Assembly (NCBI RefSeq): GCF_000152745.1
Contig: NZ_CH672428.1
Coordinates: forward strand, 1,505,251 to 1,569,250
From: Oceanicaulis sp. HTCC2633
Lineage (GTDB): Bacteria; Pseudomonadota; Alphaproteobacteria; Caulobacterales; Maricaulaceae
Length of the DNA stretch: 64,000 bases
Direction: 5' to 3'
Position numbers and translations under genes: made by a program. Position 1 is the stretch's first letter, and the number at the start of each line of letters is the position of its first letter. Below are positions 12,868 to 34,296 of this stretch, piece after piece. The notes under the pieces were generated by a model, which was not told where the DNA came from, ran no database searches, and worked only from the letters and a program-made list of their open reading frames with translations.

Positions 12868-14925
<2,058 letters not shown>

Positions 14926-31883: not shown

Positions 31884-32009
31884 CACGCGCCAGCATAGAG
31901 CACTCGGAACAAAACGCGACCAAACTCTGCACGCCCACCCGTTCAGACCGCATTCAGCTTCTCTCAATCCATAATTGGTGTAAGGTCATTGTCTTTGGGG
32001 GAGACGGAC

Positions 32010-32630
32010 ATGAGCAAGAAGCGCACGCTCTCACGGCGGTCCTTCCTGACCCAGGTCGCCGGCGGCGCCACGGCGATCGGGGCAGCTGGACTGACAGGCT
32101 GCACGACGACCGGCGCAGGCTATACGGGCCTGACCGATCAGGATCAGGGACCCTATGCGGACGCCATCGGTTATGGTCGCGGGGGCGCGTATGGCGGCGG
32201 GCGAAACTGCACCGATGCGGATCAGGGCCCTTATGCCGATCCCGCCAATCAGGGCCGGAGCTGCCAGGGTCAGTCTGGCTATACCGATAACGACCAAGGG
32301 CCTTACGCAGACCCGCCCGGCCAGGGTCGCGGGAGCGGCTATCAGAACAGCTACACGGATAATGACCAGGGTCCTTATGCGGACCCGCCCGGAAAGGGCC
32401 GCGGAAGCGGATACCAGAACGGCGTCACCGATAACGATCAGGGCCCTTACGCCGATCCGCCGGGTCAGGGCCGCGGCGGCTACCAGGGCGGCTATACAGA
32501 CAATGATCAGGGGCCGTATGCGGACCCGCCCGGCCAGGGGCGAGGCGGCTATCAGGGCGGCGGACGGCAATGCACCGATGCGGACTCCGGTCCTTATGCT
32601 GATCCGTCAGGTCAGGGACGCCGCTGCTAG
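32010..32630 (+). CDS. Tat-exported repeat lipoprotein
   Basis: 206 residues. The N-terminus has a twin-arginine signal (SRRSFLTQVAGG, Arg9-Arg10) that ends in the lipobox LTGC (Cys31), so it is exported folded and lipid-anchored. The rest is seven units of 19-26 residues with consensus TDNDQGPYADPPGQGRG followed by a Gly/Tyr/Gln-rich spacer. The DxDxG arrangement recalls calcium-binding repeats, but I recognise no described family. Cysteines occur only in repeats 2 and 7. The ATG at 32010 has GGAG six bases upstream; the TTG at 31989 is inside the leader. The oxygenase gene starts five bases after the stop, suggesting one transcript and perhaps an enzyme-substrate pair. Confidence 0.85.
   Translation: MSKKRTLSRRSFLTQVAGGATAIGAAGLTGCTTTGAGYTGLTDQDQGPYADAIGYGRGGAYGGGRNCTDADQGPYADPANQGRSCQGQSGYTDNDQGPYADPPGQGRGSGYQNSYTDNDQGPYADPPGKGRGSGYQNGVTDNDQGPYADPPGQGRGGYQGGYTDNDQGPYADPPGQGRGGYQGGGRQCTDADSGPYADPSGQGRRC
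32130..32627 (+). repeat. Seven in-frame coding repeats of about 70-78 bases
   Basis: The DNA encodes seven units of the motif D-x-D-x-G-P-Y-A-D-P. The central four are nearly identical in protein and differ mostly at third codon positions. That pattern means selection on the peptide rather than a recent DNA duplication. Unit lengths in residues are about 26, 24, 24, 24, 23, 26 and 19. Confidence 0.85.
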
Positions 32631-32635
32631 ACAAC

Positions 32636-33820
32636 ATGAGCTCCGAACCTGCTTCAATGTCCGGCGCGCTTGTCGACCTCATCGCGCCGCATGAGACGAC
32701 CGCATTTTTCGAAACCGTCTTTGAGCAGACCCATCTGCATGCCCCGGGGACTGACCGGAACCGCTTCGCCTCTCTGATCAGTCTTGATGCGATTGACCGC
32801 ATCCTCGCCGAGGACCTGTTGCGTGAGGGCGATCTGTCCATGGCGCGCGCCGAGCCGCGCCTGCCCGATCGCGCCTGGCTGCGCGAGGACGGTCTGGTGG
32901 ATCGCGGCGAGGTCGCGAGGCTCTATCAGCAGGGCGCGACCTTGATCCTGCCCCAGCTGCAGGCGCGACACCGCCCCCTGGCCGATCTCTGCCGTCAGCT
33001 GGAAGCGGAGTTCTCCTGCCCGGTCCAGACCAATATCTATCTCACCCCGCCGAACGCGCAGGGCTTTCAGACCCATTACGACAATCACGATGTGCTGGTG
33101 CTGCAGGTCGAGGGATCCAAGCGCTGGCGGCTCTATGACGCTCCTGTGGGCGTACCCTATCGCGGCGAACGCTTCACGCCGGGCCGCTTCGCCCAGACCG
33201 AACCGCGCGCAGAGCTGGTGCTGAACCCCGGCGATGTCCTCTACGTGCCGCGCGGGCTGATGCATGACGCAGTCAATGAGGGCTCTGACGAAGCCTCGCT
33301 GCACATCACCACGGGCCTTCTGGCCAAGACCTGGGCGGACTTTCTGCTGGAAGCCGTATCCGAAGCCGCCCTGCGCACGCCGCAACTTCGCCGCGCTCTC
33401 CCGCCGGGCTATGCCCGCGGCGCGGTCAGCCCGGGTGTCTTCGCCAAGACCTTCGCCGAAGCACTGGAGGCGGTGGGCCAGAACGCGGATATCGGGGCCG
33501 TGCTGGGCCTGTTCACCGATGCCGCCCTCACCTCGCGTCCCGCCGATACGCGCGGCGCGCTGACCTTGGGCCCCATCACCGCGGACACGAGACTGAAGCG
33601 CCGGGCGCTGATTGCACTCGATCTCGTGGATGACGGGGATCATGTGGCGCTGGTGGCGCCGGGCGGCGCGCTGAGCTTTGACGCCGCCGCGGAAGCGGGC
33701 CTCGAGCGGCTGCTTAAGGGCGATGCAATAAGCCTGGCGGACTTCAGCGCCCTGGATGACGCCAAGGCGCGTGACGTGATGGAACGCCTGATCGCCTATG
33801 GCGCAGCGGAGCGGGCCTGA
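32636..33820 (+). CDS. JmjC/cupin-4 family 2-oxoglutarate oxygenase (ribosomal-oxygenase type)
   Basis: 394 residues of the YcfD/NO66/MINA53 type. The iron triad is visible: His147 and Asp149 in QTHYDNHD, and His210 in VPRGLMHDAVN. Lys162 in EGSKRW fits the 2-oxoglutarate anchor. A dimerisation and winged-helix region follows, as in E. coli YcfD (RoxA), which hydroxylates an arginine of ribosomal protein L16. This one could do the same. It is, however, only five bases downstream of the repeat lipoprotein, has almost no ribosome site of its own and so is probably coupled to it. The lipoprotein repeats are therefore a candidate substrate. Confidence 0.88.
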   Translation: MSSEPASMSGALVDLIAPHETTAFFETVFEQTHLHAPGTDRNRFASLISLDAIDRILAEDLLREGDLSMARAEPRLPDRAWLREDGLVDRGEVARLYQQGATLILPQLQARHRPLADLCRQLEAEFSCPVQTNIYLTPPNAQGFQTHYDNHDVLVLQVEGSKRWRLYDAPVGVPYRGERFTPGRFAQTEPRAELVLNPGDVLYVPRGLMHDAVNEGSDEASLHITTGLLAKTWADFLLEAVSEAALRTPQLRRALPPGYARGAVSPGVFAKTFAEALEAVGQNADIGAVLGLFTDAALTSRPADTRGALTLGPITADTRLKRRALIALDLVDDGDHVALVAPGGALSFDAAAEAGLERLLKGDAISLADFSALDDAKARDVMERLIAYGAAERA

Positions 33821-33842: not shown

Positions 33843-34100
33843 CTAGCGATTGTCCGGCTGGGCGCGCACCAGTTCCAGCCCCCGCCGCGTAATGCGATAG
33901 GGACCGCCCTGTGAGGACGCCACCGCGCGCTTGGACTTGAGCTTGCGGAACAGGCGCGGGGTGACGCCGGGCATGGCCCAGCCTTCACGCGTGATCAGCT
34001 CCACATCAAGGATGCGGCCGGATGAGGTTTTGACGGCCTGCAAACGGCCGCCCTTGGCCAGCGCGTGCAATACGCGCTGTTCGTCTTTTGAAATATCCAT
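33843..34100 (-). CDS. yjhX: YjhX-family protein (UPF0386), putative toxin
   Basis: 85 residues, the usual size. The opening MDISKDEQRVLHALAKGGRL, the middle REGWAMPGVT and the ending YRITRRGLELVRAQPDNR match YjhX of E. coli, proposed as the toxin of the YjhX-YjhQ pair. I chose ATG 34100; the longer open frame to 34202 adds unrelated residues. No YjhQ-like GNAT acetyltransferase lies next to it, so it is either an orphan or not a toxin here. It is convergent with the oxygenase gene. Confidence 0.82.
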   Translation of the reverse strand: MDISKDEQRVLHALAKGGRLQAVKTSSGRILDVELITREGWAMPGVTPRLFRKLKSKRAVASSQGGPYRITRRGLELVRAQPDNR

Positions 34101-34296
34101 GGGTCTGTCGGTCCCGAGGGTCCGCAGCCGGGCTGCAGACACAAGAAATCGGCGCTCACTGGTCACAGCGAGCGGGCTCTTTGAGGCCGCCTCACCCCGC
34201 AAATTGCGAGGAGAGGCCCTACCGGGTCTCGGACAGAGTGTTACTCATAAGCGACCCGGATAGCACAAAAGCCCCGGGCCGCCTATGGTCAAAGGG

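Follow-up and report, generated by a model that had tools for sequence, protein, structure and literature searches.

What does a JmjC-type oxygenase do when its gene directly follows that of an exported protein built of repeats? This question is raised by a 64,000-nucleotide stretch of the 3.17-Mb genome of Oceanicaulis sp. HTCC2633 (here, the window), in which a gene for a twin-arginine translocation (Tat)-type repeat lipoprotein, gene A, is followed by a gene for a 2-oxoglutarate (2OG) oxygenase of the JmjC_2 family, gene B. Our answer is that A and B are likely a dedicated enzyme-substrate pair, in which B would hydroxylate the units of A before export, most plausibly at C3 of an Asp in the (S/T)-D-x-D core. 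To our knowledge, substrates have been established for few of the JmjC_2 enzymes of bacteria; at this locus, the candidate substrate, a repeat protein, has its gene beside that of the enzyme.

The A protein begins MSKKRTLSRRSFL...AAGLTGC, with an RR motif (SRRSFL, which we take to be a twin-arginine motif by its consensus) and then a lipobox, and continues with seven 16-residue units of the pattern TDxDxGPYADxxxxGR (Table 1). Tandem Repeats Finder scored the array at 277 with matches of only 74%, indicating divergence of the copies at the DNA level. When every pair of the seven units was compared, uncorrected proportions of silent and amino acid differences were 0.70 (pS) and 0.14 (pN), respectively (pN/pS, 0.20). 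Because silent differences far exceed amino acid differences, selection at the protein level maintains the unit, and the units are under purifying selection. Gene A is single-copy in the source genome (search at E ≤ 10). The A protein scored below the cut-offs of the NCBIfam Tat models, and the Tat assignment rests on the RR motif; TIGR01409 was above its cut-off for the repeat protein of one relative (L129). The predicted fold of the lipoprotein (predicted local distance difference test [pLDDT], 46; predicted template modeling score [pTM], 0.40) was of no use, and the repeat regions of the scanned repeat proteins scored below the cut-off of every Pfam and NCBIfam model.

The start of B lies 5 bases (ACAAC) beyond the end of A, and no Shine-Dalgarno-like stretch was seen ahead of it in the sequence. 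A previous sequence-only reading of the locus had described a seven-unit lipoprotein followed after five bases by a JmjC oxygenase that has no clear ribosome site of its own, and this description was borne out, both by the RR motif and lipobox of A and by the match of B to JmjC_2 (PF08007; 101.6 bits, cut-off of 22), which 57/57 B-family members also match. The active site is intact. H147, D149, and H210, which from family knowledge we presume to be the iron ligands, and the 2OG-binding K162 are identical in 119/119 ortholog rows, which include near-copies and amount to about 110 distinct sequences. N133 and Y135 are kept in 119/119 ortholog rows and 23/23 paralog rows, and RoxA has Leu and Ile at these positions.

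Table 1. Features of the A-B locus, in window coordinates
Feature	Position	Strand	Basis
Shine-Dalgarno-like GGGGGAG ahead of gene A	31997..32003	+	Sequence
Gene A, Tat-type lipoprotein, 206 aa, proposed substrate	32010..32630	+	ATG 32010, stop 32630; homologs found beside B
Presumed twin-arginine motif SRRSFL, gene A	32031..32048	+	Sequence
Lipobox LTGC, gene A	32091..32102	+	Sequence; C31 invariant in 12 aligned rows, which were selected as lipoproteins
Repeat unit 1, TDQDQGPYADAIGYGR	32133..32180	+	Sequence
Repeat unit 2, TDADQGPYADPANQGR, Cys-flanked	32211..32258	+	Sequence
Repeat unit 3, TDNDQGPYADPPGQGR	32283..32330	+	Sequence
Repeat unit 4, TDNDQGPYADPPGKGR	32355..32402	+	Sequence
Repeat unit 5, TDNDQGPYADPPGQGR	32427..32474	+	Sequence
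Repeat unit 6, TDNDQGPYADPPGQGR	32496..32543	+	Sequence
Repeat unit 7, TDADSGPYADPSGQGR, Cys-flanked	32574..32621	+	Sequence
Gene B, JmjC_2 2OG oxygenase, NO66/MINA-type architecture, 394 aa, proposed modifier	32636..33820	+	ATG 32636, stop 33820
JmjC_2 domain of B, aa 116-235	32981..33340	+	Profile match
Presumed Fe(II) ligands H147-x-D149 of B	33074..33082	+	Identical in 119/119 ortholog rows
Presumed third Fe(II) ligand H210 of B	33263..33265	+	Identical in 119/119 ortholog rows
Winged-helix-like C-terminal domain of B, aa 320-394	33593..33817	+	DSSP on predicted model; strands then three helices

The linkage of the two genes was followed in three samples that overlap in genomes: 99 relatives, 385 genomes of the class, and the best 80 of 581 related loci from a scan in which 29 B proteins were searched against the GTDB species genomes. 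A B homolog of some kind is present in 34 of the 99 relatives, and in 27, the source genome included, it is an ortholog at ≥42% identity. A Tat-type repeat protein is encoded upstream of B on the same strand in 26/27 of these genomes, in some cases as two genes in tandem; in the exception (G016), the B match starts at base 6 of a contig and is cut by the contig end. A repeat-protein profile matched 26/99 relatives, namely, the B-ortholog genomes minus G016, and 0/72 genomes lacking a B ortholog. The latter include three genomes of the same genus that are 99 to 100% complete (G006, G008, and G010). The Fisher test of this co-occurrence gives a P value of 5e-23 with genomes treated as independent, an overstatement because the genomes are related. 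In the class sample, in which the best few candidates per genome were scored, 12 genomes hold B at E ≤ 1e-98 (the next best match is 7e-53), and A was found by profile A6 in 11/12 genomes with B and 0/373 without it. In the twelfth genome (G298), the leader profile described below detected an A that is degenerate.

At the 80 loci of the GTDB scan, a strict rule fixed beforehand (≥3 units) placed a repeat protein at 62/80, the nearest one being ≤300 bases from B in 58/62 and ≤702 bases in all 62. A relaxed rule raised the count to 71/80 (adding L122, L125, L132, L143, L171, L172, L173, L180, and L184), and leader- or profile-guided reading raised it to 77 (adding L120, L175, L182, L183, L185, and L186). 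Repeat proteins were found beside B at 77/79 testable loci of these best 80 of 581, L152 being cut near a contig end; none was seen by B at L144 and L158, whose genomes have 8 and 4 profile matches elsewhere, respectively. The strict motif scans missed proteins with few or degenerate units, both among the relatives (L028 and L029) and at 15 loci of the GTDB scan. Gene order is not fixed: A lies downstream of B at six loci (L070, L073, L126, L138, L169, and L180) and is divergent from B at others (L167, L170, L171, L173, L175-L177, L179, L181, L182, L184, and L185). Within the best 80 of 581, the closest named loci are from Oceanicaulis, Maricaulis, and Woodsholea, besides other Alphaproteobacteria, and the names range over Maricaulaceae, Caulobacteraceae, Sphingomonadales, Rhodobacterales, Rhodospirillales, gammaproteobacterial metagenome-assembled genomes (MAGs), Myxococcota, and one Acidobacteria MAG; such MAG labels may be erroneous, and no more than three TDSD units are present in the Acidobacteria case. 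Repeats were found at 0/22 (21 distinct) paralogous JmjC_2 loci, with flanks of about 1.5 kb versus up to 4 kb for the B loci, and none were seen beside two distant B relatives in IMG/VR (32% and 25%). The co-occurrence and adjacency of A and B rule out that the two are chance neighbors.

The relationship of B to ribosomal oxygenases was examined by sequence searches, trees, and a predicted model. With phmmer, B matched NO66 (E = 2e-26), MINA (3e-25), YxbC (4e-11), and, more weakly, the YcfD proteins of R. marinus (4csw; 9e-8) and E. coli (8e-5). The predicted model (57 sequences; pLDDT, 93.9) aligned with NO66 over 384 residues, the full length (Z = 32.4; root mean square deviation, 4.4), and with MINA (Z = 29.9), YcfD (19 to 20), YxbC (19.6), and FIH (about 13). 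From these full-length matches to NO66 and MINA, B is predicted to have the ribosomal oxygenase (ROX) architecture, whose domains we take to be JmjC, dimerization, and winged helix. In a quick, unrooted tree of 25 B, 10 paralog, and 7 YcfD rows, the YcfD rows form one separate group with full support (100) in the Shimodaira-Hasegawa-like approximate likelihood ratio test (SH-aLRT). In the same tree, 24/25 B rows group at an SH-aLRT of only 80, with the Acidobacteria row (L184) falling outside, which makes a single origin of the repeat-linked enzymes likely rather than firm. A RoxA query identified a YcfD-type gene (E = 8e-52 to 2e-87), located elsewhere than B, in 6/12 genomes; the other five genomes with a match, as well as the source genome, gave only weak matches to B-type genes, and one genome gave none. 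The search scores, the separate YcfD group, and the six genomes with both genes rule out that B is a YcfD ortholog. Of the claims in the sequence-only reading, the alternative of a YcfD-type L16 hydroxylase beside a chance neighbor therefore fell, and the rare adjacency in relatives that it had named as evidence against a pair is the reverse of what was found. Its main proposal, a possible enzyme-substrate pair, is supported by the genomic data.

In a larger tree of 80 rows, the repeat-linked enzymes formed a single 57-row group (SH-aLRT, 86) distinct from that of 20 paralogs (97). RoxA was set as the outgroup, so its outside position in this tree proves nothing. Once later finds are counted, each of the 57 rows belongs to a genome that encodes a repeat protein. 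Nine of them had been labelled as lacking repeats; six of these have A beside B (L072 [the gene of L183], L120, L175, L182, L185, and L186) and three (L071, L144, and L158) have it elsewhere in the genome. The tree labels undercount repeat proteins because the strict scans had missed few-unit and degenerate ones.

Outside the enzyme clade of the window, the repeat proteins also share a leader. A TLTDxDI-like stretch precedes the Tat motif in 23/23 tree rows outside this clade (Rhodobacterales, Myxococcota, some other Alphaproteobacteria, and Acidobacteria) and in 0/34 inside it, where the N-terminal start is short (e.g., KKxxLSRRSFL); in Pararhodobacter aggregans proteins, which are of the leader type, the stretch reads TLTDSDI; a pattern match in L064 is in another frame, outside the repeat protein, and the start of the L136 repeat protein is missing from the data. 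A 43-column leader profile, searched against 19 genomes, gave 31 matches at E ≤ 1e-5, 8 of them its own seeds, and all 31 proteins hold DxD-type units, by reading or by overlap with repeat-profile matches. The leader search is a partly independent check on the motif scans. It found the proteins of G298 and G485, missed by the repeat profiles, and that of G422:C15, which had a weak profile match (E = 7e-5); the matches in G489 (E about 1e-4) cover the Tat stretch only. The n-region of a Tat signal requires no motif of the TLTDxDI type, so recognition of the leader by B is a natural reading of these sequences. The C-terminal domain of B may be the site: in the predicted model, it has four strands (320-322, 329-332, 336-341, and 344-349) followed by three helices (350-360, 367-370, and 375-387; assigned by DSSP). 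This is the order by which the recognition elements (RREs) of ribosomally synthesized and posttranslationally modified peptides (RiPPs) are defined in the pertinent part of PMC12710340.

Which residue would B modify? The core T/S-D-x-D, a motif that the search pattern itself fixes in part, occurs in 773 units of 119 distinct proteins. In 478 long units anchored instead on the middle Gly and the GxG(R/Q/K) tail, the three Asp positions are kept in 456 (D1), 459 (D2), and 462 (D3) units and the T/S position is kept in 463. Short forms also occur (TDSDPNDPVGNGR, TDNDSTDRSGQGR, and SDSDSSDQSGR), in which the spacing from DxD to the third Asp varies. In the proteins of L172, L180, L184, G298, G422:C15, and G485, [GA]R is found once or not at all and (S/T)DxD is kept, e.g., GSDYDPNDPIGGGSDTDPVDPIGEGTDYD; of these, L180 and G298 have just one or two (S/T)DxD units left. 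Because most units without a final Arg keep (S/T)DxD, we propose an Asp as the target and favor its C3-hydroxylation in the cytosol before Tat export. Arg, His, Asn, and Asp had all been named as candidates in the sequence-only reading; Asp is now preferred and Arg is kept merely as a rival. Histidyl hydroxylation of the repeats is rejected, since His makes up only about 0.5% of the repeat regions.

The pocket of B bears on the same choice. Within the portion of PMC9994133 on NO66, Tyr328 and Ser421 are described as holding the substrate His, and, in the simulations, Asn contacts only the Tyr. In B, Y135 and G227 are 93 positions apart in the NO66 frame, the same spacing as Tyr328 and Ser421; the Tyr is kept, and the Ser position is Gly227 in 119/119 rows. 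Provided that A is the substrate, B thus departs from the features of the NO66/MINA histidyl hydroxylases. With a Tyr/Gly pocket, and Asn reaching only the Tyr in those simulations, a short acidic side chain is conceivable as the target.

Several observations weigh against hydroxylation of Asp guided by a leader. The constancy of (S/T)DxD is partly circular because the relaxed scans, too, look for the motif. The L120 units (TDASDQSGG or PDASDQSGG) have neither DxD nor a final Arg. The position of G227 is Gly in 18/23 paralog rows and also in RoxA, so that it is no marker of Asp specificity and the argument from the change of Ser421 to Gly is weakened. The A protein of the window itself is without the TLTDxDI leader, the RRE-like order of the B domain comes from a predicted model, and the RRE family PF05402 matches 0/57 B-family members. 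Finally, Arg closes 476/478 of the anchored long units, although the anchor itself demands R, Q, or K. This last count invites the strongest of the rival explanations, that the pair is real but B hydroxylates the closing Arg, as YcfD does on L16. YcfD, a ROX relative, indeed acts on Arg (PMC5862935, in the part concerned with it). We consider an Arg target unlikely, given the proteins that keep (S/T)DxD with no more than one [GA]R, the YcfD rows that group apart, and the Leu and Ile of RoxA in place of the invariant N133 and Y135. With the closing Arg nearly constant, however, an Arg target is disfavored only on the condition that the target is common to all B enzymes.

A still less probable explanation is that B serves A as a Tat-proofreading or holding chaperone, its oxygenase activity being unused on A. 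Gene pairs of Tat chaperones and their substrates exist, and the conserved leader ahead of the Tat motif could be a chaperone site. The iron and 2OG ligands, which a pure chaperone would not need, are nevertheless invariant in all ortholog rows, and the unit is common to substrates dispersed in the genome. That B is a ribosomal oxygenase and A a mere neighbor with no substrate role, as might be supposed from its best sequence and structure matches being the human ribosomal oxygenases NO66 and MINA, is very improbable in view of a co-occurrence and adjacency that persist through changing gene order and of the patchy distribution of B across the genus, which the repeat protein follows.

For dedicated hydroxylation of A by B, we infer the reaction, the residue, the order of events, the role of the winged helix, and the function of the product as follows. 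A and B would be translated together. B would act as a cytosolic Fe(II)/2OG oxygenase that binds the N-terminal part of pre-A, its winged helix probably holding this region of the substrate as an RRE holds a RiPP leader. With O2, 2OG, and Fe(II), it would hydroxylate the unit cores after translation and before Tat export, most likely at C3 of an Asp in (S/T)-D-x-D, which would yield many 3-hydroxyaspartates per protein. Modified A would then leave via Tat for the cell envelope and be lipidated; a cut by signal peptidase is expected in place of the leader removal and small-product release of RiPP-type systems. The hydroxylated product could plausibly help to bind metal or confer stability at the cell surface. 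In some genomes, B may also modify further repeat proteins encoded elsewhere. It is possible, if somewhat short of probable, that A and B exemplify a widespread system: Tat would export metal-binding surface repeat proteins in which each (S/T)DxD unit has received 3-hydroxyaspartate from a JmjC oxygenase equipped with an RRE-like winged helix. Under this same tentative reading, the system would parallel in bacteria the aspartyl hydroxylation seen in epidermal growth factor (EGF) domains and would produce O2- and 2OG-dependent polyhydroxyaspartate envelope proteins.

Repeat proteins dispersed far from B were found in several genomes (G036, G020, G038, G047, G022, and G049; G245, G327, G101, and G334). 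One of them (L252:943-1626, in G245:C63) has the leader, the Tat motif, five units, and a C-terminal PG_binding_1 domain (67.6 bits), which suggests a cell wall location for that member. In three genomes of one genus (L096:4230-5890, L099:4111-5834, and L100:3987-5648), the dispersed repeat protein gene adjoins a gene for an HGSNAT/DUF418-type membrane acyltransferase, a family assignment tested for L099; another dispersed copy (L097) has no acyltransferase neighbor. In some gammaproteobacterial records (L132, L133, L136, L141, L143, and L156), the repeat regions beside B are nearly pure Ser/Asp (SDSDSSDQSGR, etc.), recalling the Ser-Asp repeats of adhesins.

Several neighboring features were also noted. 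Rhodobacterales B enzymes at L226 (B on the minus strand), L175, and L185 contain an inserted stretch with TDxD-like units and are possibly self-modified. In the source genome, B has one paralog, distant at 31% identity, whose gene comes after that of a radical SAM/SPASM protein resembling XyeB (G000:C1:478516-482493; L106:2517-6494; L002). The SPASM protein scored 345 bits with TIGR04496 (cut-off of 450), and another protein encoded in the cluster matched the M1-peptidase family weakly, at 19.1 bits and below the cut-off; this neighborhood is a second, RiPP-like JmjC cluster. In the window, B is followed by a convergent gene (33843-34202, minus strand) for a YjhX_toxin family protein (PF09857; 121 bits), and Tandem Repeats Finder reported a further tandem array with 45- and 30-base periods at 14695-14883.

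The shared travel of A and B across many bacteria points to an undescribed system that modifies cell surface proteins before export. If the proposal is true, it adds a posttranslational modification of envelope proteins in many Alphaproteobacteria and some other bacteria, and it suggests why unfolded-looking repeat proteins use Tat, namely, to allow time for cytosolic modification. It would also mean that the cell surface bears a mark dependent on O2, and it could provide a multisite, perhaps leader-guided, hydroxylase as a tool. The human ribosomal oxygenases are the structures that match B most closely, and the finding has a bearing on their relatives in bacteria as well.

No description of such an oxygenase-repeat protein pair was found in searches of open-licence PMC papers, and the system is best placed by comparison. 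The His-Xaa-Ser system (HxsA and its radical SAM maturases) likewise joins a repeat protein to dedicated maturases but differs in its radical SAM chemistry and its motif; the HxsA model scored 34.6 bits against the L252 protein, below the cut-off of 121.65, over a stretch that includes the peptidoglycan-binding domain. YcfD/RoxA, the arginyl hydroxylase of L16 Arg81, shares superfamily and fold with B (Z about 19 to 20) but has its own tree group, lacks the N-x-Y pair in RoxA, and coexists with B in 6/12 genomes. NO66 (RIOX1) and MINA53 (RIOX2) match the B model over its full length and keep HxD...H, the Lys, and the N-x-Y pair; they act on His, nearly missing from the repeats here, and in the frame given in the relevant part of PMC9994133, NO66 Ser421 and MINA Ser257 correspond to Gly227 of B. 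FIH is a JmjC oxygenase that hydroxylates repeated motifs of ankyrin proteins, Asp included (PMC9994133; see also PMC3569879), and so resembles the proposed role of B, but it is structurally more distant, eukaryotic, and without a dedicated gene pair. The nearest precedents are the JmjC hydroxylases of RiPPs and the RRE-fused JmjC proteins. RRE-Finder flagged PF08007 proteins with RRE-like domains, with bacterial homologs in RiPP-like contexts (in the relevant section of PMC12710340); these share with B the PF08007 domain and, by the predicted model, a strands-then-helices domain, whereas section 6 of that article names no substrate, repeat, or Tat export, and the B family is unmatched by PF05402. 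BipG/BpmG, the JmjC ornithine hydroxylase of the biphenomycin RiPP, is, in the passages of PMC12707348 and PMC12257519 devoted to it, a bacterial JmjC enzyme whose substrate is a ribosomal precursor encoded in the same cluster, and it sets the precedent that a JmjC enzyme can modify such a precursor. There, a many-enzyme route leads to a small antibiotic; here, one enzyme is paired with a Tat-type, multirepeat protein. By analogy, the A-B system may work like RiPP-type hydroxylation, or like FIH on its repeats.

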